From IMG/VR virus record IMGVR_UViG_3300017917_001910, positions 1-64,000 of that record: a stretch of 64,000 bases of DNA, one strand, 5' to 3'. Made by a program: the position numbers and the translations under genes. Source of the stretch: a virus. The notes under the pieces were generated by a model that was given only the letters and a program-made list of their open reading frames with translations, had not been told where the DNA came from and did not search any database. Of this stretch, positions 1-18,666 are shown in pieces (positions within the stretch are counted from its first letter, which is position 1; each line of letters opens with the position of its first letter).

Positions 1-98
1 ATGCTTTCAGTTTTTCAATTAAAGTTTTCATATATTTTAAATTTTAGTTTATCAAATCAAGTTCAGTGTAAGCACTACGCTTATACTCAACCGTTATA
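1..98 (-). repeat. Hairpin cassette element G, cut by the window edge
   Basis: On the minus strand this starts with the core TATAACGGTTG (93-98 and below) followed by a 5' arm at 70-87. The inner end of the matching 3' arm is just visible at bases 1-7, so the element continues outside the window. A start-like ATG at about 29-31 opens an ORF (MKTLIEKLK...) in the loop. The layout matches the complete elements further right. A smaller local hairpin (61-73 with 79-91) also exists. Confidence 0.6.
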
Positions 99-273
99 AA
101 ACATTTTTTAATTGGTTCTTCCAATATTCTTTCGTTCTATACAATTTAAAAGAATAATCCTGTTCCATTCTATCTCTTTTTTGTTCTCTTAAACTTTCTT
201 CATCTAAATACTTCAATTTCTTTTCAATTGTATCATATTCATCAGGTATCTTTAATAATTCTCTGTATATCAT
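94..273 (-). CDS. Small charged cassette protein, unknown function (59 aa)
   Basis: I do not recognise this protein. It starts MIYRELLKIPDEYD, is rich in Lys, Glu, Asp and Arg, and has no membrane segment or cysteine motif. The ATG lies about 17 bases downstream of the GTTATA core of the hairpin at 285-402, and the TAA stop falls inside the core of the next hairpin (93-98), so the ORF fills one cassette almost exactly. No Shine-Dalgarno sequence is visible. Its fit between two structured elements is the main reason for accepting so short an ORF. It is likely co-transcribed with the other cassettes from the promoter-like site near 2,052-2,087. Confidence 0.5.
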   Translation of the reverse strand: MIYRELLKIPDEYDTIEKKLKYLDEESLREQKRDRMEQDYSFKLYRTKEYWKNQLKNVL

Positions 274-284
274 AAAAAACGTTT

Positions 285-402
285 TATAACAACAAATATA
301 AGCAATTATTTCATTACTTTAAAATAAATGTTGTTGGTTAATAATTATTTTTGTTCTTCTAATTTAGTTTAGTTATAACTGCTTATATTTGTAACCGTTA
401 TG
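285..402 (-). repeat. Hairpin cassette element F (attC-like)
   Basis: Cores are GTTATG (397-402) and TATAAC (285-290). The arms 293-309 and 375-391 pair over about 17 bp, with a perfect 13 bp block (292-304 with 380-392). The single mismatch is G.T on the minus strand. Between core and arm there are 5 bases (GGTTA) on the 5' side and 2 on the 3' side, the same asymmetry as in the other elements. No ORF runs through this core; the next ORF starts downstream of it. Confidence 0.75.
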
Positions 403-499
403 TACAAGTGGGGTTGCCAGCTTCTCCAAGCCTGATGCGTTTTTAGTTTAAAGTCGGTATCCGTCACAACCGATTGCAGTTAATTACCCCCACCTGATA
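403..499. other. Cassette body without a convincing gene
   Basis: This interval between elements F and H has no ORF of normal size. It contains an extra inverted repeat: 397-413 pairs with 487-504 (GTTATGTA...GGTGGGG). A 36-codon minus-strand ORF (464..574) starts in the loop of element H and crosses its core in the same phase as the larger cassette ORFs, but it is too short to call as a gene. The 352 bp from 274 to 625 therefore hold only elements F and H and this body. Confidence 0.4.
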
Positions 500-630
500 C
501 ATAACAGCGTATATAAGAAATTGCGGTTTTGACTTTGGAAATGTAAGTCGCACAACTTTACATCTACACCCCATCAAAGTTACCATTTTGTGCAAAATAC
601 CGCAACTTCTCATATACGCAAAACGTTATA
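500..630 (-). repeat. Hairpin cassette element H (attC-like)
   Basis: Cores are GTTATA (625-630) and CATAAC (500-505). Arms 507-527 and 599-619 match at 19 of 21 positions and both mismatches are G.T on the minus strand. A nested hairpin in the loop pairs 541-547 with 556-562. At about 130 bp it is similar in size to the long attC sites of Vibrio integrons. The stop codon of the upstream cassette ORF (626-628) lies in its first core. Confidence 0.8.
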
Positions 631-841
631 AGCCATTTATGTAATCCTCAATAGCCTCTAAGTGTGCCAACATTAAAAATGCTTTATGGCATTGTTCATT
701 TTCTTTCGGTTGCTTACCTTCTTTTAATAGCGGTTCTGCTAATCTACCAGCGTTCACTTGCAATTTAAACTTTAAACGGCTTATAACATCGGCTATATGC
801 AATGCCTTTCCGTTTTCATCAAATACTTGTATATCAATCAT
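626..841 (-). CDS. Cassette protein whose frame crosses element A, unknown function (71 aa)
   Basis: I do not recognise it. I prefer the ATG at 841 (MIDIQVFDENGKA...) over the upstream ATG at 892, because 892 lies in the 5' arm of the hairpin. The chosen start is in the loop of element A. The frame then passes through the 3' arm and core, giving the segment LHIADVI, where GTT ATA of the core reads Val-Ile. The rest is soluble and charged, ending EDYINGL. The TAA stop lies in the first core of element H. Related segments (LHISDVM, LNISDVI, LLLSVVM) occur in other cassette ORFs. A start downstream of the core is also possible. Confidence 0.5.
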   Translation of the reverse strand: MIDIQVFDENGKALHIADVISRLKFKLQVNAGRLAEPLLKEGKQPKENEQCHKAFLMLAHLEAIEDYINGL

Positions 842-908
842 TTTTGTATATTTATTAAGTTTTGTGCAAGTTTCACCATCGGCACTGCACATAGCCGTAA
901 GCGTTATA
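782..908 (-). repeat. Hairpin cassette element A (attC-like)
   Basis: Cores are GTTATA (903-908) and TATAAC (782-787). Arms 790-806 and 881-897 match at 15 of 17 positions, with both mismatches G.T on the minus strand. Spacers are 5 and 2 bases. The loop contains the likely start codon of the ORF 626..841, so part of the element is translated. Confidence 0.8.
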
Positions 909-922
909 GGTAATAAAATTTA

Positions 923-1117
923 CTACCATTGTCGTATAATTGAAAGTATTTCTTCCAATTCCATTCCATCACTAATCATTTCCGATATATCAGTTTCTTG
1001 TGAAGTGGTGAAGGTTGGTTCTCCATCAGGTATCTTATCAATACCATATCGTTTCTCAATCAACTTTTCTTCCCTAACTTTCAGTTCTACTTGTTTGAAT
1101 AATTTATCTTGTTTCAT
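923..1117 (-). CDS. Small cassette protein, unknown function (64 aa)
   Basis: I do not recognise it. The sequence (MKQDKLFKQVELKVREEK...) is charged, with an acidic C-terminal half rich in Glu, Ser and Ile and the ending SIIRQW; no membrane segment. It has the layout of a conventional integron cassette: the ATG is about 20 bases past the core of element I (1138-1143), and the stop TAG is about 15 bases before the core of element A. This ORF lies wholly between two elements, unlike its neighbours that read through a core. Confidence 0.5.
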   Translation of the reverse strand: MKQDKLFKQVELKVREEKLIEKRYGIDKIPDGEPTFTTSQETDISEMISDGMELEEILSIIRQW

Positions 1118-1137
1118 ATCCGTAAATTTTACATACC

Positions 1138-1231
1138 TATAACAAAGTGTATAAGTAATGTGGCTAATAAAGTTTTGTTCTAAGTTGAAAGTATGTGCAA
1201 AGCCACACTACTCATACACTCAACCGTAATA
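1138..1231 (-). repeat. Hairpin cassette element I (attC-like)
   Basis: Cores are TATAAC (1138-1143) and a decayed GTAATA (1226-1231). Arms 1146-1165 and 1201-1220 match at 18 of 20 positions, and both mismatches are G.T on the minus strand. Spacers are 5 and 2 bases. At 94 bp it is one of the two shortest complete elements. Confidence 0.8.
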
Positions 1232-1468
1232 CATCATTCTTAACCAATTTGTATCCTTCTTGTTCAGCTATTTTTTCCAACCAATGTTTAATGTAAAAAT
1301 TCACATCATCATCTGCTTCTTCGTGTTCCCATCTTACAACTTGTCTTAAATTATATTCCCAAGAGTATTCTCATTGAATTTTTCCATAGCAGAACGATGT
1401 ATAACATCAGATATATTCAAGTTTTCTTCTGACTCGTTAAATCTTTTAATGTGTTTTAAATCTTTCAT
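1212..1468 (-). pseudogene. Frameshifted cassette ORF
   Basis: From ATG 1468 the frame reads MKDLKHIKRFNESEEN, then LNISDVI encoded by the 3' arm and core of element D, then HRSAMEKFNE. It stops at 1346-1348. A shift of one base near 1,360-1,370 opens a second frame (YSWEYNLRQVVRWEHEEA...), which runs on to a TGA at 1212-1214 inside element I. The smooth continuation suggests one gene of about 85 residues carrying a one-base deletion, either real or a sequencing error. Function unknown. The start lies in the loop of element D and the core is read in the same phase as in the other read-through cassettes. Confidence 0.45.
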
Positions 1469-1532
1469 CTTCGTATGTTATTTTAGTGTATATATTAAAA
1501 AGAAAACCTAAATATATCTGAGTATCGTTAGC
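1400..1532 (-). repeat. Hairpin cassette element D (attC-like)
   Basis: Cores are GTTAGC (1527-1532) and TATAAC (1400-1405). Arms 1407-1427 and 1501-1521 match at 19 of 21 positions; the two differences are one G.T and one T.G pair on the minus strand. The short spacer here is 1 base rather than 2. The loop holds the start codon of the frameshifted ORF 1212..1468. Confidence 0.75.
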
Positions 1533-1731
1533 GTAAATTGCCACTATTACAATATTTGTCTGTGCAAAATGGTTTTCCCATAGAATAACCACTTCTACCA
1601 CATTTTTGACAGTTATTAGGTGGCAACTGTCCACTAACACCAAATAAACGCAATAACCGTGCTTTTGCTTCATTTGATGTTATATGTCCTTCTCTAAGGT
1701 CTGATGCTATTTGTAAAATTTCTTCTTTCAT
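1528..1731 (-). CDS. Cassette protein with a possible zinc ribbon (67 aa)
   Basis: Starts MKEEILQIASDLREGHITSN in the loop of element E, runs through its 3' arm (ARLLRLFGV) and core (GTT AGT read Val-Ser), and ends in a cysteine-rich tail: CQKCGRSGY followed by CTDKYC. Four cysteines in two close pairs suggest a small metal-binding knuckle, but no function can be named. The TAA stop overlaps the first core of element D. The N-terminal part is encoded by hairpin sequence and the cysteine-rich part by the cassette body, so the protein is modular at the recombination-like core. Confidence 0.55.
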   Translation of the reverse strand: MKEEILQIASDLREGHITSNEAKARLLRLFGVSGQLPPNNCQKCGRSGYSMGKPFCTDKYCNSGNLR

Positions 1732-1763
1732 ATCGTTACTGCGTTTATTTGTGAACCGTTATA
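1633..1763 (-). repeat. Hairpin cassette element E (attC-like)
   Basis: Cores are GTTATA (1758-1763) and ACTAAC (1633-1638). Arms 1640-1657 and 1735-1752 pair over about 17 bp with one G.T wobble on the minus strand. The 5' spacer is GGTTC, as in the consensus. The loop includes the start and first 25 or so codons of the ORF 1528..1731. Confidence 0.75.
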
Positions 1764-1770
1764 AGTAATA

Positions 1771-1932
1771 TTATTTTTGTTTTGAATTTTTATAACTATC
1801 GTGTGTTTTATTAACAGCATCTTGAACACTTTCCATCCAAGTTCTAAATATTGGTCTGAAGTTAAATATACTCATCTCAGCATCCCAAATTACTTTTGGT
1901 ATTTCAATTTTAATAATTTTTCGGTTTTTCAT
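1771..1932 (-). CDS. First cassette ORF of array 1, unknown function (53 aa)
   Basis: I do not recognise it. The protein starts MKNRKIIKIEIPKVIWDAEM and ends KNSKQK; it is basic, with several Trp and Phe residues and no membrane segment. It is the first ORF downstream of the promoter-like site at 2,052-2,087 and starts about 45 bases past the TATAAC half-site at 1975-1980. The TAA stop is 8 bases before the core of element E. The position directly behind the promoter is where an integron would carry its most recently gained cassette. Confidence 0.5.
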   Translation of the reverse strand: MKNRKIIKIEIPKVIWDAEMSIFNFRPIFRTWMESVQDAVNKTHDSYKNSKQK

Positions 1933-1974
1933 AATTTAATTTTTTTATATGGTAAAACAAAAATAATACATACT

Positions 1975-2045
1975 TATAACAACAAGTTTGTGAAATAAAC
2001 CGCTTTCGATTTGTCCGTAAGTTAATCGGTTAATTGAATTTTTGT
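1975..2045 (-). repeat. Half element K at the head of array 1 (attI-like candidate)
   Basis: Only the downstream half fits the family: core TATAAC (1975-1980), a 2-base spacer and an arm-like CAAGTTTGTGAAATAAACC. The expected upstream half is weak (about 14 of 22 positions against 2032-2053) and lacks a GTTATA core. A one-sided site between the promoter and the first cassette is what an attI site would look like, but degeneration of a full element is equally possible. Confidence 0.4.
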
Positions 2046-2051
2046 GTTTCA

Positions 2052-2087
2052 TATACTTAAAGATAAGAAAAACATTTCATATTTACA
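2052..2087 (-). promoter_or_regulatory. Promoter-like element P1 heading array 1
   Basis: The minus strand carries AAATATGAAATG, a short gap, then CTTATCTTTAAGTATA. Closely related copies occur at 16,531-16,567, 28,317-28,354 and 29,349-29,384, with looser relatives at 8,721, 41,197 and 55,681. The TATCTTTA box resembles the Bacteroidetes -7 element TAnnTTTG. It sits between the last regular gene (2083..2586) and the cassette array. Confidence 0.55.
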
Positions 2088-7494: not shown

Positions 7495-8703
7495 TTAATT
7501 TTCAAAGAAACTACTTAAAATTTCTCTGTTTTGGCTAGGAACCCAATCTCCTCCATAATTTACATAGTAATGTCTATACTTTTCGTAAATTTTATATGCA
7601 TTATCTGGCTGATCAAACATTTCATGTATTGATTTAAGTATAATATACATATCATTAGGAACAACGCCTTGTAATAACTCTACATCTCCAGAACAAAAAT
7701 CTGCAATATCATACATACCTTTATTAAATACTAATAAGTTTTGAATAGTAGCTCTGTCATAATATTCTTGTTTATAATCATTAACTACGCCCATTGTAAA
7801 GTTTTTAGATACTGGTGTATGATAAAGAACAGGTATTGGTTTTGTTTCTGTATACTTAATATCTCTAGAAACATGCATTTGCGTCCAATTTAATGTTCCA
7901 AAATTCGGAGCTAAAATAATATCTCCATATACTGGAAATTGTCCTGGCGAAGAACTATCCGTCATTAATTGAATTTTACCACCATAATGCTTATTTAAAA
8001 GCGCTTGATAAGTTCCAAGTACAAAAAAATCAGATACTTTAGAAATACCTAACATATGAATAAATTCATTTCTTGGATTTTCAAATTCGCGATTCTCTAA
8101 GAATAAAGCAATAGTATAAATAAAATCTACTAATCTACGACTACCTCCAACACACCATCCTTTAAAATCAAAATGCTTAACGGTATCATACCATAAATTC
8201 CATTGACTAGGATTATTTCCTTGAAGTACGTTTAAGAATTTAGTTTTACCAGATTGTTTACTTGCAAAATATTTAAAATTATCATAACTAAAATCTAATG
8301 ATTCTTGGAATCGTCCTTCATATTGAGTACGTGGCGGAATATCTAAATTCGCAGCAACGTCTGAATTTTCTTCTAAGAATGCTAAGATTTGATCTCTAAT
8401 ACCTACGTCCCATTTAATTGCTCCTGTGGCAATCTGGAAACCTCCTGAATCGCCAAATGTAAATACATTCTCTAATCCGAATGTTATACGAGCATCCATC
8501 TTTTTATAAAAATGCCCTGCTGTAATTAAGAAGTATGGGTGGCGAAATTCTTCTGGAAAATCTTCCGCATAAAATCTAGTTGTTAAACCAGGTTCAACTT
8601 CTCTATTCTTTTTTAAAGACGCTGCTGTTCCTCCTGCGGATAATGAAGGAATAAATAATGGCTTTCTGTTTGGGTTTGGTGCTGTGATTTTTGATAAATC
8701 CAT
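7495..8703 (-). CDS. dpdA: DpdA-like DNA transglycosylase (TGT family)
   Basis: A 402-residue member of the tRNA-guanine transglycosylase fold. FGDSGGFQIATG (about 83-94) matches the DSGGFQ substrate-pocket motif, and LDIPP at 120-124 and LMTDSSSPGQF supply aspartates in the positions expected for catalysis. Family members encoded by phages, called DpdA, exchange guanine in DNA for a 7-deazaguanine. Genes for making the precursor (folE, queD, queE) lie in the same window, which supports a DNA rather than tRNA role. No zinc-site cysteine cluster typical of bacterial TGT is seen. Promoter-like P5 and a terminator lie just upstream. Confidence 0.75.
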   Translation of the reverse strand: MDLSKITAPNPNRKPLFIPSLSAGGTAASLKKNREVEPGLTTRFYAEDFPEEFRHPYFLITAGHFYKKMDARITFGLENVFTFGDSGGFQIATGAIKWDVGIRDQILAFLEENSDVAANLDIPPRTQYEGRFQESLDFSYDNFKYFASKQSGKTKFLNVLQGNNPSQWNLWYDTVKHFDFKGWCVGGSRRLVDFIYTIALFLENREFENPRNEFIHMLGISKVSDFFVLGTYQALLNKHYGGKIQLMTDSSSPGQFPVYGDIILAPNFGTLNWTQMHVSRDIKYTETKPIPVLYHTPVSKNFTMGVVNDYKQEYYDRATIQNLLVFNKGMYDIADFCSGDVELLQGVVPNDMYIILKSIHEMFDQPDNAYKIYEKYRHYYVNYGGDWVPSQNREILSSFFEN

Positions 8704-8803: not shown

Positions 8804-9583
8804 TTATTTCTTTAATCCGTCATTTATTAAATAAAAAAAGTTAGATTTACTATCTCGTTTAATTTCTGGATATACTTCTTTTAGTATATCGTATATTTTA
8901 AATGCTAACTTTGGGTCGATGCTGAATAAATTTAATTCTTCTTTACCAGATATATCTTGTTCTTTTAATTTCTTTTTAGGTCTTTTATTGAAACTAGCAA
9001 ATTTATCTACCGGTGCTGGTCCGGTTTTCTTTATTATGTATAAAGTAATAAACGAAAGGGTTGCAATAGTAAAGAATACAAAAAATGCATACATACCTAA
9101 TTTAAACCAAATACTTCCTTCAGTTGCTTGGGCGCCATACAAATCAACCATAATCTTCATTACATCAGATTCAGCCATTCCTTGGATTGTTTTGTAATAC
9201 CATTGATTGAATGATCTGTCTATGTATTGTAGACCACCGGCAACAGATAATAGTCCACTTACAAAAGAACCTATCCCTCCACCTAATAAACCACCTTTTG
9301 CAAATTGTTTAAGCCTGTCTACAAAGCCTTCATTTAAGCTTTGTGAGTCTGTTTCTAACTCCATTTGGGCTTTTTCCATAGATCCTTGTGGAAGGGGCTT
9401 AGTAGTTAAGTTATCTATATTAACGTGATTAGAAGCTTCTTCGTAGTTATCTTTAGCAGCCTTTACTGCCGCTGCTTTAATCTTTGATAAAAAGTCTGTT
9501 AGCTTAGATTCAGTTAGTTGTTGTTCAAATACTGCTAGTTGAATTTCTTCCTTAATGATCTTTTTTAAATCTGATTTTTTCAT
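8804..9583 (-). CDS. Head-targeted membrane-type protein with capsid-targeting-like N-terminus
   Basis: The first 21 residues (MKKSDLKKIIKEEIQLAVFE then QQ) form a charged amphipathic helix like those on several other proteins here and like the T4 capsid-targeting sequence. The middle carries a glycine-rich hydrophobic stretch (about 93-118) and a strong membrane segment (about 165-190, FFVFFTIATLSFITLYII) followed by basic residues. Function unknown. By analogy with T4 internal head proteins it may be packed in the capsid and reach the host membrane at injection, which is an inference. It directly follows another targeted gene with a one-base spacing. Confidence 0.6.
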   Translation of the reverse strand: MKKSDLKKIIKEEIQLAVFEQQLTESKLTDFLSKIKAAAVKAAKDNYEEASNHVNIDNLTTKPLPQGSMEKAQMELETDSQSLNEGFVDRLKQFAKGGLLGGGIGSFVSGLLSVAGGLQYIDRSFNQWYYKTIQGMAESDVMKIMVDLYGAQATEGSIWFKLGMYAFFVFFTIATLSFITLYIIKKTGPAPVDKFASFNKRPKKKLKEQDISGKEELNLFSIDPKLAFKIYDILKEVYPEIKRDSKSNFFYLINDGLKK

Positions 9584-10204
9584 TTATTTCTTTTTGAAGT
9601 TAGGATTTTTTAAGATAGCTTTTTTCATTAAAGCTATGTCACTATGATACTGAGCAATCCTATCTGTACTATTAACAGATGGATTACTAATTTGATACTT
9701 GTTTGTACCCTTCTTGATAAGAACTTTTTTATCTATCAATTCTTTTATCATTTGATCAAAGCTACCTTTGTATTGATACACATCTTTATTTTCACGTACT
9801 CTAATCATTCCTTGATCAGTACTTGCTTCTTTTTCCAAGTATGCAACTGTGATTCCGTTTGGACCACTACCCATCACTTCATAGGTTTTTGTATTGTAAG
9901 AACTTTCACTTTCTATAGTCCCTTGTATAAGTTCAAGTACAGCATCTAATGGACCAGTCATAGTTTCCTCTGCTTCCATAGTACCAGCAGCTAATTCTTT
10001 AGGATTTTCTAGACCAGCCTTTTTATAGATTCTTGCAAGAGTCATTTGCATATCGTCATGGGCACCTTCATCCTCTGGGTAACGTATACGTGATTTTAAA
10101 GCTGTTTTAAGTGCGGTTAATAAAGCAGGGTCAATAGTTACATTTTCCTTTAATACTTTACGAATCTCTTCTTTGATCAATTCTTTTAGTTCTAATTTTT
10201 TCAT
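9584..10204 (-). CDS. Head-targeted protein, unknown function (206 aa)
   Basis: Starts with MKKLELKELIKEEIRKVLKE followed by N, the same targeting-like helix with a LKE|N end that fits the (L/I)xE cleavage rule of T4 gp21. The rest is soluble, with an acidic region (GTMEAEETMTGPLD) and a basic, winged-helix-like C-terminal third (SFDQMIKELIDKKVLIKKG...). No known domain is certain. It is adjacent to and in line with the membrane-type targeted protein 8804..9583 and ends in FKKK. Confidence 0.55.
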   Translation of the reverse strand: MKKLELKELIKEEIRKVLKENVTIDPALLTALKTALKSRIRYPEDEGAHDDMQMTLARIYKKAGLENPKELAAGTMEAEETMTGPLDAVLELIQGTIESESSYNTKTYEVMGSGPNGITVAYLEKEASTDQGMIRVRENKDVYQYKGSFDQMIKELIDKKVLIKKGTNKYQISNPSVNSTDRIAQYHSDIALMKKAILKNPNFKKK

Positions 10205-14263: not shown

Positions 14264-15061
14264 TTATATAGGCAAATTTATTTTAGATAAAAGTTGATTT
14301 GATACATGAGTGTAAATTTCAGTAGTTTTAATATTAGAATGACCTGCAAGTTTTTGTATTATTCTAATATCCGTCCCGGATTCTAATAAGGCAGTAAAAC
14401 AAGAATGTCGTAGCGTATGAATATGTCCCGATGAATCTATATATTTTTTATAAATTTTTTGACAACTACCTATTGAATAATAAAGAGAATCTTGCCCGTT
14501 AAATAGATATTCTATAGGCTTATATTGTTTAAAATACTCTCTAAGTAATGTTAATACATTTTCTGAGAGCGGTACAATCCTATCTTTTCTGCCTTTAGCA
14601 TTTTTAATGTGTATAAGCATCCTTTTCGAGTCAATATCCTCAATTTTTAGATTGACTATTTCAGACACTCGTAATCCAACTGAGTAGGTTAGTGTTAAGA
14701 TTGCTTTATGTTTAAGATTTTCTATTTTTTGCAGTTGTGTTTTGATAAGATTACTATCAACTACCTTCGGTAATTTCTTTTCTGATTTTGGTCTTTCTAT
14801 TTTAGATAAATGAATGTCTTTTTTATTTAGTATATACTTAGAAAATAATTTCAATGCTCCTATATATTGATTTTGTTGACTACAAGAAGTATATGGATAT
14901 TTTTCAAGGAATGAGACTATCTGTTGAGTTCTTACTTGATATGGGTCTTTAATTTTTTCCGTTTCTAAAAAAAGTTTTAAATAAGAAATATATAACTTGA
15001 TACTGTTATTAGAATAGTTTTTATATCTTAATTTTTCTTCAAAAATTTTAAGAATTTTCAT
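14264..15061 (-). CDS. Tyrosine recombinase (XerC/D- or IntI-like)
   Basis: 265 residues. An N-terminal SAM-like DNA-binding domain (1-90) precedes a catalytic domain with Arg131 (GLRVSE), Lys in AKGRKD (about 156-159), H215-T-L-R218-H, His241 (LAGHSN) and the nucleophile Tyr250 (TEIYTH). It cuts and rejoins DNA at specific sites through a covalent phosphotyrosine. It lies at the downstream end of hairpin array 2, with a core-like GTTATATGCAATGC site about 50 bases upstream of its start, so it is the best candidate for moving the cassettes. The IntI-specific insert was not identified with confidence; ordinary phage integrase is the alternative. Confidence 0.85.
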   Translation of the reverse strand: MKILKIFEEKLRYKNYSNNSIKLYISYLKLFLETEKIKDPYQVRTQQIVSFLEKYPYTSCSQQNQYIGALKLFSKYILNKKDIHLSKIERPKSEKKLPKVVDSNLIKTQLQKIENLKHKAILTLTYSVGLRVSEIVNLKIEDIDSKRMLIHIKNAKGRKDRIVPLSENVLTLLREYFKQYKPIEYLFNGQDSLYYSIGSCQKIYKKYIDSSGHIHTLRHSCFTALLESGTDIRIIQKLAGHSNIKTTEIYTHVSNQLLSKINLPI

Positions 15062-15113
15062 GTTTAAATTATTGATTTTATTAGAGATTTAGGTAGGTTA
15101 TGTATATATAATA

Positions 15114-15180
15114 GTTATATGCAATGCTACGTTTCTGCTTCGTATTAAGTTTGGTGTATAATCTTTTTGTTTTATTTTTT
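15114..15180 (+). repeat. Core-like site L upstream of the recombinase; inverted partner near 15,690-15,757
   Basis: GTTATATGCAATGCTAC at 15114-15130 matches the element C flank GTTATAAACAATGCTAC (16508-16524) at 15 of 17 positions. Further on, a CTTTTTGTTTTATTTTT block recurs inverted on the far side of the GNAT gene, where GTTATATGCAGTGC also lies on the minus strand (15,744-15,757). So the GNAT gene is flanked by inverted core-like ends. No full hairpin of the cassette type is evident here. Confidence 0.4.
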
Positions 15181-15196
15181 CTTCCACCACACAAAA

Positions 15197-15634
15197 TTAA
15201 CGATTATATACCATAAAAGGTGCTGTTGAATCTGTTTCAAAATTGTTATCTTCTTCTGAAACTCTAAAACCATTTTTAATATACCAATCTACTAATTCTT
15301 GTTGATTTAAACCACCGCTTGTTTTAATATTATTTGATATTGATGCTCTTAAAGATAGTGGTACACCTGTTTTATCAGAATATTTTTTTAGTTTATTAAG
15401 TAATTTAGTTGCGTATCCTTTACCTTTAATATCAGACCAAATTTCAGATATATAAATAGAAACTTCACCATCAGATAATTGTTCAATATTTAATTCAGCG
15501 TGTGCATATCCATCATCAATTTTAACTTCGTCTAATTCAAAATACAATAATTTATTTAATCTTGAATTTTCAAATATTTTCTGTTCATTCAAATATTCAC
15601 GTATAGTAGTTGCTATAAATTTTCTTAATTCCAT
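15197..15634 (-). CDS. GNAT acetyltransferase-like protein with targeting-like N-terminus
   Basis: I use ATG 15634 (MELRKFIATTIREYLNE then QK) because this start gives the same N-terminal helix and L-x-E end as the other head-targeted proteins; the longer frame adds 23 hydrophobic residues with no such likeness. The body has strand YAHAELNI, YISEIWSDIKGKGYATKLLNKL (the acetyl-CoA binding motif, KGKGYAT) and VDWYIKNGFRV, which fit the GNAT fold. The substrate is unknown. It lies between the recombinase and cassette element J. Confidence 0.65.
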   Translation of the reverse strand: MELRKFIATTIREYLNEQKIFENSRLNKLLYFELDEVKIDDGYAHAELNIEQLSDGEVSIYISEIWSDIKGKGYATKLLNKLKKYSDKTGVPLSLRASISNNIKTSGGLNQQELVDWYIKNGFRVSEEDNNFETDSTAPFMVYNR

Positions 15635-15751
15635 ATTATCAAATAGTTTTATTCTATATATAAATATCCAAATTTTAATTTCCCACTCACAAAAATAAAA
15701 CAAAAAGGTTCATCTCTCGTATCAAAGTTTGTAGGTTAAAACCGCACTGCA

Positions 15752-15844
15752 TATAACAAAATGTATAAGAAAGTTTGCTATCAAGTTTAGTACTAATTTG
15801 AAAGTTCATCATAAGCAAACCTTCTCATACACCCAACCGTTATG
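15752..15844 (-). repeat. Hairpin cassette element J (attC-like)
   Basis: Cores are GTTATG (15839-15844) and TATAAC (15752-15757). Arms 15761-15779 and 15814-15832 match at 16 of 19 positions and all three differences are G.T on the minus strand. Spacers are 5 and about 2 bases. It ends array 2 on the GNAT side. Confidence 0.75.
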
Positions 15845-15853
15845 TTCAATGAA

Positions 15854-16147
15854 TCAAAAACCAATTTCTTCTAATCTTTTTTTAATCGCTTTAAGAACTT
15901 TACTTCTTATTTTATTTGATTTGTTCATACCACTCCAAAGACCTTGTAGTTTAACTAACTTTTCCATTCCTTTTTCACCATTACATTTAGATATATCAAA
16001 TAAAATATCTTCTAATTCCTTATCTTCCATTGTGTATATTTTCTTATCTTCCATTGTGTAGATTTTTGATTCACTAAACATAACATCAGATATATGTAAT
16101 TTTTTATCTGTGTTATCAAGTTCTGTGTTCTTATTATCTTTATTCAT
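15854..16147 (-). CDS. Cassette protein crossing element B, unknown function (97 aa)
   Basis: Starts in the loop of element B (MNKDNKNTELDN) and runs through the 3' arm and core as KLHISDVM, with GTT ATG read Val-Met. The ATG inside the core could be an alternative start. The first part of the body repeats KIYTMEDK twice (encoded by a short direct repeat near 16,019-16,060), followed by a helical, basic C-terminus (NKIRSKVLKAIKKRLEEIGF). The TGA stop is about 10 bases before the core of element J. No known domain. Acidic N-terminus and basic C-terminus suggest a nucleic-acid or protein-binding peptide, without proof. Confidence 0.5.
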   Translation of the reverse strand: MNKDNKNTELDNTDKKLHISDVMFSESKIYTMEDKKIYTMEDKELEDILFDISKCNGEKGMEKLVKLQGLWSGMNKSNKIRSKVLKAIKKRLEEIGF

Positions 16148-16206
16148 ATTATTTAAGTTTTGTGTTTCAATTTAAGAAAAAACTACATATATCTGTGACC
16201 GTTATA
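16079..16206 (-). repeat. Hairpin cassette element B (attC-like)
   Basis: Cores are GTTATA (16201-16206) and CATAAC (16079-16084). Arms 16087-16105 and 16177-16195 match at 18 of 19 positions with one G.T on the minus strand. Spacers are GGTCA and AT. The loop encodes the first 16 or so residues of the ORF 15854..16147. Confidence 0.8.
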
Positions 16207-16213
16207 CGTAATG

Positions 16214-16468
16214 CTAATCATACAGCGTTACCTTTCCATCTTTATAATCATAACTTCCACTACGACCCAACACCCAAAAAAGAACACCTGCGTCATTTGC
16301 ATATTCTTTCTGTGTTTCAATATCACCACATTCTCTTGCGTTTTCAAGTCCTGCCAACGCACATCGTAGTCGTTCTTCTATCTCAGAAGCACTACGCATA
16401 ACAACAGATAAAAGCAATTTTTCATCACTTCTATTTGAGTTATCTTGCATAATTTTACTTTCGTCCAT
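16214..16468 (-). CDS. Cassette protein crossing element C, unknown function (84 aa)
   Basis: Starts in the loop of element C (MDESKIMQDNSN) and crosses the 3' arm and core as KLLLSVVM (GTT ATG in frame). The remainder, RSASEIEERLRCALAG...DAGVLFWVLGRSGSYDYK, is soluble and predicted helical. I do not recognise it. The ATG within the core is an alternative start that would give a 61-residue protein. TAG stop lies about 10 bases before the first core of element B. It is the promoter-proximal ORF of array 2. Confidence 0.5.
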   Translation of the reverse strand: MDESKIMQDNSNRSDEKLLLSVVMRSASEIEERLRCALAGLENARECGDIETQKEYANDAGVLFWVLGRSGSYDYKDGKVTLYD

Positions 16469-16513
16469 TTTATTTAATTTTAGTTAAAACTGCTTTTATC
16501 TGCAACCGTTATA
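16397..16513 (-). repeat. Hairpin cassette element C (attC-like), first of array 2
   Basis: Cores are GTTATA (16508-16513) and CATAAC (16397-16402). Arms 16405-16421 and 16486-16502 match at 16 of 17 positions with one G.T on the minus strand. The promoter-like P2 ends only about 20 bases upstream of the first core, so a transcript would begin within or just before this element. Confidence 0.8.
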
Positions 16514-16530
16514 AACAATGCTACTTTTAT

Positions 16531-16567
16531 TATACTTAAAGATAAGGAAAACAATTCATATTTCCAA
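16531..16567 (-). promoter_or_regulatory. Promoter-like element P2 heading array 2
   Basis: The minus strand reads GGAAATATGAATTG, a short gap, then CCTTATCTTTAAGTATA. It differs from P1 at a few positions only. Both arrays therefore start behind the same type of sequence, and that type also precedes ordinary phage genes (P3, P4), which ties the arrays to the phage transcription programme. Confidence 0.55.
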
Positions 16568-16621
16568 ATTTTATTATAATTTTAATGTATTGATATTCAG
16601 TATGTAAGGCCTTACTATTCA

Positions 16622-17126: not shown

Positions 17127-17273
17127 TTATTTTAAATTCTTAACGAAATTATAAAATTCTTCTCTTACTTTAGCATCGTCTTTAAATGCTCCCGTTAATT
17201 TTGAAGTAATCATTGTCGAATCATGCTGAATACCTCTTAAACAAGCGCATTGATGACCTAATTTCTTTTCCAT
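17127..17273 (-). pseudogene. C-terminal fragment of a second folE
   Basis: Reads MEKKLGHQCACLRGIQHDST and on to FVKNLK, 48 codons. It aligns with the last 50 residues of the full FolE at 18037..18666 (HQCACLRGIQHDSTMMTSKLTG), with several substitutions, so it is a divergent copy and not a recent duplicate. The ATG overlaps the stop of the HNH endonuclease gene by one base (TAATG). It keeps one zinc-ligand cysteine but lacks the rest of the active site, so it cannot be an enzyme alone. Most likely a leftover of a folE allele broken by homing. Confidence 0.8.
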
Positions 17274-17869
17274 TATTTTAAATTTTGTTTTTGTTCCTGT
17301 CTTACACGCTTCATTGTTTCTGAAATACGTTGTTTAATATCATCTGGAGTTTTTTTACCTGCATTCCATGCTTTCCTACCTTTATGCATATTAGATAAAT
17401 TATCTTTAAACTCTTGAGAACGTACCTTACCGCTATTTGCATTACTAATTTTTAATTTTGTCGCATCGGTATGTTTCCAATTTGTTCTAGATTTTTTTCT
17501 TTTAGCAATGCATTCTGCACTCATTTTCTTACCAGTAAATAACTCACTACGTATACTTGATTGTTGAGTTTTTATCAACTCATATATTCTTGATGACGGG
17601 ATATATCTTTTTCCTGCCCGTCCTTTACTCGTAACCATACACCAAAGAGCATAAATTAACTGTTTATTACCTGGATATATTTCACAAAGTAACCGATGAC
17701 AAATAAAATGTTCTTTTGCAGTTAACATTACTAAATTATCACTATCATTATTACCGCCCAAACATTTAGGAATAATATGATGTTTTTCGTAATAATGTTC
17801 TTTAGTACGAATTCGTATTTCTGAATTAGCTTTTTGTATTATCTGATTGTATATTTTTTCGTAATTCAT
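17273..17869 (-). CDS. HNH homing endonuclease with NUMOD3 repeats
   Basis: 198 residues. The HNH core is KHHIIPKCLGG (30-39) with DNLVMLTAKEHFICHRLL, giving the His, Asn and His ligands in the expected spacing. The C-terminal half has repeated GKKMSAECIAKRKKS- and GKVRSQEFKDN-like segments (NUMOD3-type DNA-binding modules, about 114-190). It cuts DNA at a target near the folE 3' end by inference from its place: between the folE fragment (17127..17273) and the intact folE. A 53-codon ORF overlaps its start. Confidence 0.85.
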   Translation of the reverse strand: MNYEKIYNQIIQKANSEIRIRTKEHYYEKHHIIPKCLGGNNDSDNLVMLTAKEHFICHRLLCEIYPGNKQLIYALWCMVTSKGRAGKRYIPSSRIYELIKTQQSSIRSELFTGKKMSAECIAKRKKSRTNWKHTDATKLKISNANSGKVRSQEFKDNLSNMHKGRKAWNAGKKTPDDIKQRISETMKRVRQEQKQNLK

Positions 17870-17987
17870 AGTATTTTTCCATTGCTTTATCGTTTATAAT
17901 CTGTTTATTACGGTCATAATAAGATTTAGACCATTTACGTTGAGCTTCTTTAAGCTCTTCTTCGGTATATTTCTTTTTACGTCCCAT
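17826..17987 (-). CDS. Small basic protein overlapping the HNH gene start (53 aa)
   Basis: Starts MGRKKKYTEEELKEAQRKWS and continues KSYYDRNKQIIN. The sequence is basic and helical, of a kind often seen near phage homing genes. It overlaps the HNH gene by 44 bases in another frame. It could be a genuine peptide that couples translation of the nuclease, or the separated N-terminal DNA-binding part of it. No Shine-Dalgarno sequence. Confidence 0.4.
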   Translation of the reverse strand: MGRKKKYTEEELKEAQRKWSKSYYDRNKQIINDKAMEKYYELRKNIQSDNTKS

Positions 17988-18036
17988 ATTGCTTTATTAT
18001 AATTATATCACTAATAGAAAAATACTAATAGAATTA

Positions 18037-18666
18037 TTACTTATTTTTAAGATACCCAATGAACTTATAAAACTCATCGCGTGTTGCTGCATCTGATTTA
18101 AATGCTCCAGTTAGTTTAGAAGTCATCATTGTTGAATCATGTTGAATGCCTCTTAAACAAGCACATTGGTGATTTGCTTCAATTACTACAGCAACTCCTA
18201 AGTTAAACTCACAAGTGTTATTTAAATATGCACTAATTTGTTCTGTTAGGTTCTCTTGGACCTGCGGCATACGACAAAAATAATCTACAACGCGATTTAA
18301 TTTACTTAATCCAATTACTTTACCATTAGGCGCTGGAAGATATGCAACATACGCTTTACCGGTAAACGGCAAATGATGATGGCTACAAATAGATTTAACA
18401 TTAATATCTCCTTGAAAGACCATTCCATCATATCTATCTGTGTTAGAAAATGCTGTAATTTTAGGTGGTTCATTAAACTTTGATTTAATTAAGTCATTAA
18501 CAAAAGATTTAGATACTCTTCTCGGAGTATCTATTTCATGTGGATTATTATCAGGATCTAGTCCTAATGCTTTCATAAAATCATAATAGTGCTTACTTGC
18601 AGTTTGTATGATTGTTTCTTTTTCTTCTTCAGTGTATTGTTTAAAATTCTTCATTGTTGTTTTCAT
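18037..18666 (-). CDS. folE: GTP cyclohydrolase I (FolE)
   Basis: 209 residues with DTPRRVSKSF, CSHHHLPFTGKAYVAYLP, GLSKLNRVVDYF, QVQENLTEQI and HQCACLRGIQHDS, the usual FolE order with the zinc cysteines and histidine present. It converts GTP to dihydroneopterin triphosphate, which is the first step of both folate and 7-deazaguanine synthesis. Other genes here (queD, queE, dpdA-like) make the second pathway the likely use. The start is behind the stop of the GT-B gene. A divergent C-terminal fragment lies about 760 bases away beyond an HNH endonuclease. Confidence 0.93.
   Translation of the reverse strand: MKTTMKNFKQYTEEEKETIIQTASKHYYDFMKALGLDPDNNPHEIDTPRRVSKSFVNDLIKSKFNEPPKITAFSNTDRYDGMVFQGDINVKSICSHHHLPFTGKAYVAYLPAPNGKVIGLSKLNRVVDYFCRMPQVQENLTEQISAYLNNTCEFNLGVAVVIEANHQCACLRGIQHDSTMMTSKLTGAFKSDAATRDEFYKFIGYLKNK

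Follow-up and report, generated by a model that had tools for sequence, protein, structure and literature searches.

The 64-kb window analysed here (the whole stretch of DNA under study, from a T4-like phage) very probably carries a phage-encoded, integron-like cassette platform, with recombination inferred and no laboratory demonstration to date. The original prediction had proposed an integron-like cassette array, possibly of a distinct family. We found this supported, and considerably strengthened by a tyrosine recombinase and an attI-like site, neither of which had been reported. The system is an integron by architecture and by cassette exchange, but it is not canonical by strict definition, because it has no IntI domain, lacks the usual pattern of extrahelical bases and carries its genes in reversed orientation. 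Phage markers in the same record include a gp43-like polymerase, a clamp loader and a gp23 capsid protein.

Two attC-like arrays lie in the window, array 1 at 1-1985 and array 2, absent from the original prediction, at 15114-16512. On the minus strand their hairpins share one plan, with TAAC/GTTA cores and spacers that measure ~5 nt on the 5' side and ~2 nt on the 3' side. The plain core-distance pattern was not significant in the window (11 matches versus 6.6 expected), so arm pairing was scored in the hairpin scan. This returned nine hits, eight of them true elements, versus 0-2 hits per strand (mean ~0.45) in 20 shuffled 64-kb sequences, confirming the predicted hairpin rule. Array 1 was expected to hold seven elements and a half element; the half element at 1975-1985 stands, while the seven become six complete hairpins and a partial one at 60-97. 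Nor does every element precede one small ORF with its stop at or near the next core, as had been claimed; this is the usual arrangement, with exceptions at 401-500 and 1212-1468. A near-identical sequence, CTTATCTTTAAGTATA, heads both arrays (~2052-2069 and 16531-16548). The contig ends at position 1, and no recombinase lies alongside array 1 on it. The features of array 1 are as follows.

1975-1985, minus strand: half attC (element K) heading array 1, with the R'' side alone
1771-1932, minus strand: cassette ORF, 53 aa; DNA 83% identical to a cassette of phage contig L014, the match ending at the core
1634-1762, minus strand: attC-like hairpin (hairpin scan)
1528-1731, minus strand: cassette ORF, 67 aa; start within the hairpin
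1401-1531, minus strand: attC-like hairpin (hairpin scan)
1212-1468, minus strand: cassette ORF, frameshifted, in pieces 1346-1468 and 1212-1304
1139-1230, minus strand: attC-like hairpin with variant R' core ATTAC
923-1117, minus strand: cassette ORF, 64 aa
783-907, minus strand: attC-like hairpin (hairpin scan and folding)
626-892, minus strand: cassette ORF, 88 aa; start within the hairpin, stop TAA within the next core
501-629, minus strand: attC-like hairpin (hairpin scan and folding)
401-500, minus strand: 100-bp cassette without a convincing ORF, its two ends pairing mutually
286-401, minus strand: attC-like hairpin (hairpin scan and folding)
94-273, minus strand: cassette ORF, 59 aa; stop TAA within the core
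60-97, minus strand: partial, one-core attC with R' core and short arms, R'' absent

Array 2 lies beside the recombinase.

16531-16570, minus strand: head sequence common to array 1 (CTTATCTTTAAGTATA), a possible promoter (function not tested)
16398-16512, minus strand: attC-like hairpin of cassette 1, containing the ORF start (hairpin scan and folding)
16214-16468, minus strand: cassette 1 ORF, 84 aa
16080-16205, minus strand: attC-like hairpin of cassette 2, holding the ORF start codon (hairpin scan and folding)
15854-16147, minus strand: cassette 2 ORF, 97 aa; the hairpin encodes its N-terminus (KKLHISD, then V)
15753-15843, minus strand: attC-like hairpin of cassette 3 (hairpin scan and folding)
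15197-15637, minus strand: cassette 3 ORF, weakly GNAT acetyltransferase-like (below Pfam cutoffs)
15097-15118, minus strand: attI-like site ATAACTATTATATATACATAAC, core ATAAC at 15114-15118, ~53 nt 5' of the recombinase start
14264-15061, minus strand: tyrosine recombinase, 265 aa, presumed cassette integrase (Pfam Phage_integrase, 1e-34)

The window recombinase has the catalytic set R131, K156, H215, R218, H241 and Y250, and these residues are invariant in 25 relatives. Against NCBIfam it scored 185.6 bits to recomb_XerA and 157.4 bits to integrase_gron, both below cutoff. At least 80 IMG/VR contigs carry relatives with 41-88% identity; all relatives are on metagenomic contigs, and no close relative was found in isolated phages (best 40%). 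A gp23 or terminase match exceeded the cutoff in 22 of 50 relative contigs tested. The IntI-specific additional domain (~42 residues, near patch III) occurs in IntI1 and in three further IntIs but is missing from the window protein and its relatives; known integron integrases are described as requiring it (PMC9668308, citing Messier and Roy 2001). A quick tree separated the phage clade from IntI sequences by a branch with SH-aLRT 100. Judged by their sequences, the phage recombinases are a virus-enriched clade adjoining Bacteroidota XerA-like recombinases.

Of the 51 usable related loci, 42 have at least two hairpins immediately 5' of the recombinase. Array elements number 267 upstream, 3 downstream and 6 on the other strand, and the arrays beside the recombinase are tandem with attC sites facing one way, as required of an integron. 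The attI-like motif TAACTATTATATATA was found within 130 nt of the recombinase start in 59 of 67 viral loci (0.015 expected), as a conserved site ~50 nt before the start codon. This conservation, together with a junction between contigs L008 and L009 at the same site, meets the attI criterion; cassette entry itself is inferred. The phage system thus resembles canonical integrons (IntI1, the Vibrio chromosomal integron) in having small cassettes arrayed in tandem together with a tyrosine recombinase and, next to it, an attI-like site; it also shares their layout, the array lying at the 5' side of the recombinase and the bottom strand being the recombinase sense strand.

Known systems offer two further comparisons. 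Clusters of attC sites (CALINs) and integron fragments are known from phage genomes, including those of virulent phages, one of them a Polaribacter phage (Qi et al., 2023, PMC9892861), so the claim that integron-like arrays were undescribed in phages of this type needs correcting. We found no description of the present platform in the literature, subscription papers and preprints not being covered. The published virulent-phage clusters are likewise attC-like arrays but have no integrase, whereas in the present system dozens of contigs show inter-phage exchange and possess both a recombinase and an attI-like site. The second comparison is with chromosomal XerA-like recombinases of Bacteroidota and Bacillota that accompany attC arrays (L099, L101, L106, L120 and L128). 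These share the recombinase type without the IntI domain and have homologous attCs of the same polarity, but their arrays lie 3' of the recombinase, their cassettes keep the classical gene-then-attC order, and they fall in separate tree clades. The phage attCs are homologous over ~130 nt to those of Bacteroidota arrays beside recombinases of the same type.

This homology leaves some room for the view that the arrays are relics of host integrons acquired by the phage, next to an unrelated phage integrase. Array 1 taken alone fits a cluster without an integrase, having no adjoining recombinase on this contig, and such clusters do occur in virulent phages; array 2 has a recombinase, albeit not an IntI. 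Relics would not account for a virus-enriched recombinase clade with a 5' array in most loci and a common attI-like site, nor for cassette genes oriented opposite to those of the bacterial arrays (201:1 versus 2:10). We consider this explanation very improbable.

Of the features in the published definition of attC sites (PMC2727003), R boxes, an asymmetric unpaired central spacer, a G after AAC and a variable terminal structure are all present in the hairpins, and R and L boxes are shared with canonical sites. In 95% of elements the AAC of R' is directly followed by G, matching the canonical attC bottom strand (PMC2727003). The 5-versus-2 spacer had been taken to set these elements apart from canonical attC; this needs correcting, as the asymmetry resembles that of the unpaired spacer in canonical sites (PMC2727003). 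Sharper departures are the lack of an IntI domain and the inverted orientation of the genes. A further criterion, the 2-3 extrahelical bases expected in the R''-L'' arm, is not met: among 168 unique core-anchored elements, 89 had no bulge, and the common bulge (31 elements) was on the arm opposite the canonical one. These counts are alignment-based, and a minority could conceal canonical bases.

One strand is favoured. All 14 non-Watson-Crick pairs in the eight detected window elements are G-T on the minus strand, with no A-C (P ~6e-5 if the side were random), which argues for a favoured strand in the window hairpins. Folding on both strands, as the original prediction had suggested, gave lower DNA folding energy for the minus strand in 6/6 window elements tested. 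Since spacers vary by one base, a fixed-register pair table blurs the wobble positions, and a gapped table replaced it.

Each cassette gene has its attC-like hairpin at its 5' side and is encoded on the structured (bottom) strand. The ORF lies on the structured strand in 201 of 202 clear phage cassette cases, so that, unlike in canonical integrons, the gene is reversed relative to attC and attC sits at the gene start. About a third of cassette ORFs (83/255) have their start codon within the hairpin or loop, and some leaders are encoded in frame by attC. One such leader is common to unrelated genes, an observation that cutting at R' alone does not explain and that counts against the integron reading.

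Coding-strand structure, start codons in loops and in-frame leaders could be expected if the hairpins were mRNA structures, for example controlling translation or processing between small phage genes, rather than recombination sites. RNA control, however, gives no reason for the TAAC/GTTA cores to stay constant while the arms change, for identity to break at the 5' core, for the attI-like site to be conserved or for a recombinase to be linked; an Rfam scan gave no match for the hairpins. As a full explanation this appears highly improbable, and a secondary RNA role is not excluded. A tRNA scan of the window found nothing.

Evidence for cassette exchange comes from comparisons between phages. 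Had all relatives carried the same genes in the same order, the integron interpretation would have been refuted; instead, cassettes vary, 227 of 255 cassette ORFs are non-redundant, and identity switches on and off exactly at TAAC cores. The predicted hairpin was found elsewhere in phages and in Bacteroidota, with content differing between phages at the cores. A 309-bp cassette is 100% identical in the otherwise unrelated arrays of L008 and L027, its identity starting and stopping at a TAAC core, and between L008 and L009 the 1200 bp starting at the attI core are identical, while the sequence preceding the core is unrelated. Other whole-cassette matches ending at cores include L010/L080 (98%), L025/L045 (97%), L008/L057 (93%) and window/L014 (83%). 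Exchange between arrays with junctions at R' cores, a property of canonical integrons, is thus satisfied. Ordinary homologous recombination between attC repeats, without any site-specific step, has in its favour that T4-like phages recombine strongly and that attC families are repeated and homologous, but it is very hard to sustain because the 309-bp cassette and L008/L009 junctions have only the ~5-bp TAAC core in common, which is too short.

Some candidate observations were set aside. We dropped a cut at the 3' (R'') core, by which one cassette's hairpin would serve the next gene, since it is the 5' (R') core that bounds shared cassettes on either side. An apparent array rearrangement in L022 was rejected as possibly chimeric, since its attI region differs from that of L026 and its recombinase start is mismatched; a rearrangement between L025 and L026 is only weak evidence, as identical 50-bp attCs could create false assembly joins. 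The cargo consists mainly of unknown small proteins; some acetyltransferases and orphan DNA methyltransferases also occur, and we infer that this content would fit a counter-defence store. No relatives of the GNAT-like cassette (15197-15637) were found in viral contigs.

We think it likely, with less assurance than for the platform itself, that the phage system represents a distinct, virus-adapted integron class. This is a joint reading: the phage would perform its own cassette capture, recognising folded attCs without the IntI domain or canonical extrahelical bases; strand choice would rest on wobble pairs and the one-sided spacer; cassettes would be of inverted polarity, with an attC that can carry start codon and leader peptide; and phages would exchange cassettes with one another, drawing on an attC pool common with overlooked Bacteroidota chromosomal integrons.

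Under the mechanism we propose, phage replication would expose single-stranded DNA in which the attC minus strand folds, its choice probably set by G-T wobbles and the one-sided spacer instead of canonical extrahelical bases. The recombinase is inferred to bind the paired core and arm regions and to cleave the R' core (AA^C). The cassette would then be joined to double-stranded attI, leaving the newest cassette beside the recombinase; alternatively, attC x attC joining may excise or shuffle cassettes. Each cassette would bring its own hairpin upstream of its gene, with the stop codon often at or near the next core, and the inserted genes, running in the same direction as the recombinase, could be read from an upstream phage promoter. 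Array 1 would be a second array of the same phage, its recombinase absent on this contig.

The same kit occurs with differing genes in dozens of metagenomic virus contigs, and therefore the viruses probably acquire and exchange small genes much as bacteria do by means of integrons. If the mechanism is as inferred, integrons would also be an active gene-acquisition tool of lytic phages, and a virus-enriched integrase lineage would have been overlooked by standard searches because these demand the IntI domain. What in IntI reads the folded attC would become a directly testable question, since the phage system appears to manage without that domain and without the bases it is thought to read. That attC families are shared suggests a possible trade in cassettes between phages and Bacteroidota, and the arrays amount to a ready-made inventory of small phage proteins, most of them unknown and some being DNA methyltransferases.

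The source virus record is 115,252 bp long. The window covers its first 64 kb and encodes a clamp loader and a polymerase, both T4-like, and the rest of the record includes a T4-type gp23 capsid gene. Using a detector that combines core, spacer and arm-pairing scores, we found eight hairpins in the window, where shuffled windows gave a mean of ~0.45 hits per strand. Array 1 holds five of the eight and one additional hairpin of variant core (1139-1230), upholding the original prediction of a cassette array there; a second array, with the other three (15753-16512), was missing from that account. The heads of the two arrays are nearly the same in sequence. All 14 non-Watson-Crick arm pairs in the eight hairpins are G-T on the minus strand, which was also the better folder in 6/6 hairpins tested. 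Within array 1, 100 bp between two cores (401-500) have mutually pairing ends and no convincing ORF, and are perhaps a non-coding cassette, while a frameshift breaks one cassette ORF (1212-1468, minus strand), by either gene decay or sequencing error. Another viral contig (L007) likewise carries a second array (8946-9699), ~7 kb from its recombinase; more than one array per phage may be common.

A gene for a 265-aa tyrosine recombinase, whose catalytic residues do not vary across 25 relatives, directly adjoins array 2 on its 3' side and has the same strand; 22 bases separate it from the DNA polymerase gene. The top profiles for the recombinase, XerA at 185.6 bits and integron integrase at 157.4 bits, each fell below their own cutoff. 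Alignment to IntI1 and three further IntIs revealed that the IntI-specific segment (~42 residues) is absent. XerA structures ranked first against the predicted model (pLDDT 86), with attC-bound VchIntIA a close second. A quick tree built from 120 proteins grouped three MAG contigs with 24 viral representatives in one clade (SH-aLRT 99) amid Bacteroidota XerA-like proteins, separate from IntI (SH-aLRT 100). Elsewhere in the window, an HNH endonuclease carries a duplicate end of the GTP cyclohydrolase gene (17127-18666, minus strand):

18037-18666, minus strand, GTP cyclohydrolase, complete gene
17273-17869, minus strand, HNH homing endonuclease, after the GTP cyclohydrolase gene
17127-17273, minus strand, second copy of the GTP cyclohydrolase C-terminal tail, after the endonuclease

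At least 80 recombinase relatives occur in IMG/VR. Among the matches listed, after removal of duplicates and of loci with less than 1.2 kb upstream, 42 of 51 loci had two or more hairpins upstream of the recombinase. Overall, 267 elements lay upstream in recombinase orientation, three downstream and six on the opposite strand. Also among these matches, TAACTATTATATATA or a near variant precedes the recombinase start codon by ~50 nt in 59/67 loci, making this motif, from its sequence, a candidate attI. A gp23 or terminase match exceeded the cutoff in 22 of 50 records tested, many being fragments.

Fixed cassette content and order among relatives would have refuted the original prediction; instead, cassettes differ between phages, switching at cores. 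Two viral loci (L008 and L009) are unrelated ahead of the attI core; from this core onward, through the recombinase gene, they match exactly over 1200 bp. L008 also shares a 100% identical 309-bp cassette with L027, bounded by TAAC on both sides and with different neighbours. Further whole-cassette matches bounded by cores range from 77 to 98% identity, and one links array 1 to L014 (83%). Very short attCs (~50 bp) in L014, L022, L025 and L026 are near-identical in adjacent cassettes and a likely source of assembly errors.

On the structured strand, elements read R' (NTAAC), a spacer near GGTTG, arm, loop, arm, a short T-ending spacer, R'' (GTTA) and the gene. In 95% of elements a G directly follows AAC, and the same G is conserved on the canonical attC bottom strand (PMC2727003); we therefore identify the structured strand as the bottom strand. 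Viral cassette genes lie on this strand in 201/202 clear cases, and in bacterial relatives two do so versus ten on the opposite strand. Linkage, a conserved attI-like site, strand-biased hairpins and exchange at cores are all directly documented; by inference, the folded minus strand would be cleaved at AA^C and cassettes would insert at the attI next to the recombinase. Canonical strand choice depends on extrahelical bases in the R''-L'' arm (PMC2727003), whereas 89/168 phage elements lack extrahelical bases and, where a bulge does recur, it lies in the opposite arm. G-T pairs concentrate ~13 and 18-19 nt from the core. An asymmetric spacer can still polarise a site without extrahelical bases (PMC2727003). 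We hypothesize that the recombinase's lack of the IntI domain and the sites' lack of extrahelical bases fit together.

Cassette ORFs are short (median 87 aa) and mostly non-redundant (227/255). Of the 255, 83 start within the hairpin, 49 stop at the core's TAA and another 126 stop within ~20 nt of it. Among 100 scanned, known domains were few: three DNA methyltransferases, two GNAT acetyltransferases, an RNA ligase and an exoribonuclease. Some attC families encode leader peptides (e.g., KKLHISD, ENLNISD) in frame with unrelated gene bodies, recalling the near-identical attCs of Vibrio arrays. Leader-encoding hairpins occur at many loci (e.g., L006:6568-6694, L027:4901-5031 and window 16080-16205); how one leader came to precede many bodies is unexplained.

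Proteins matching the recombinase family at 1e-40 were found in 143/395 Bacteroidota genomes, and several bacterial chromosomes carry attC arrays adjoining such a gene on its 3' side, in classical gene orientation. Phage and bacterial attCs share 72-79% identity over ~130 nt in several pairs, with matching polarity. In five chromosomes of Bacteroidota and Bacillota (L099, L101, L106, L120, L128), attC arrays lie 3' of an XerA-like recombinase (at 8001) without the IntI domain, and such arrays are possibly overlooked chromosomal integrons. No IntI exceeded the cutoff in eight bacterial genomes tested, six with attC arrays at the recombinase. In published scans, Bacteroidetes almost never had complete integrons (PMC9024848), perhaps, we infer, owing to an IntI domain requirement.

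Integron fragments and attC clusters were reported in phages in 2023, and laboratory work showed IntI1 recombining some of them (PMC9892861). The literature searched contained no phage platform that combines inverted cassettes with a recombinase lineage of its own in which the IntI domain is missing. The phage system is not a canonical integron, because it was tested for the IntI domain, placement in the IntI clade, extrahelical bases and gene orientation and met none of these. It is a noncanonical integron, and one that likely functions as an integron.
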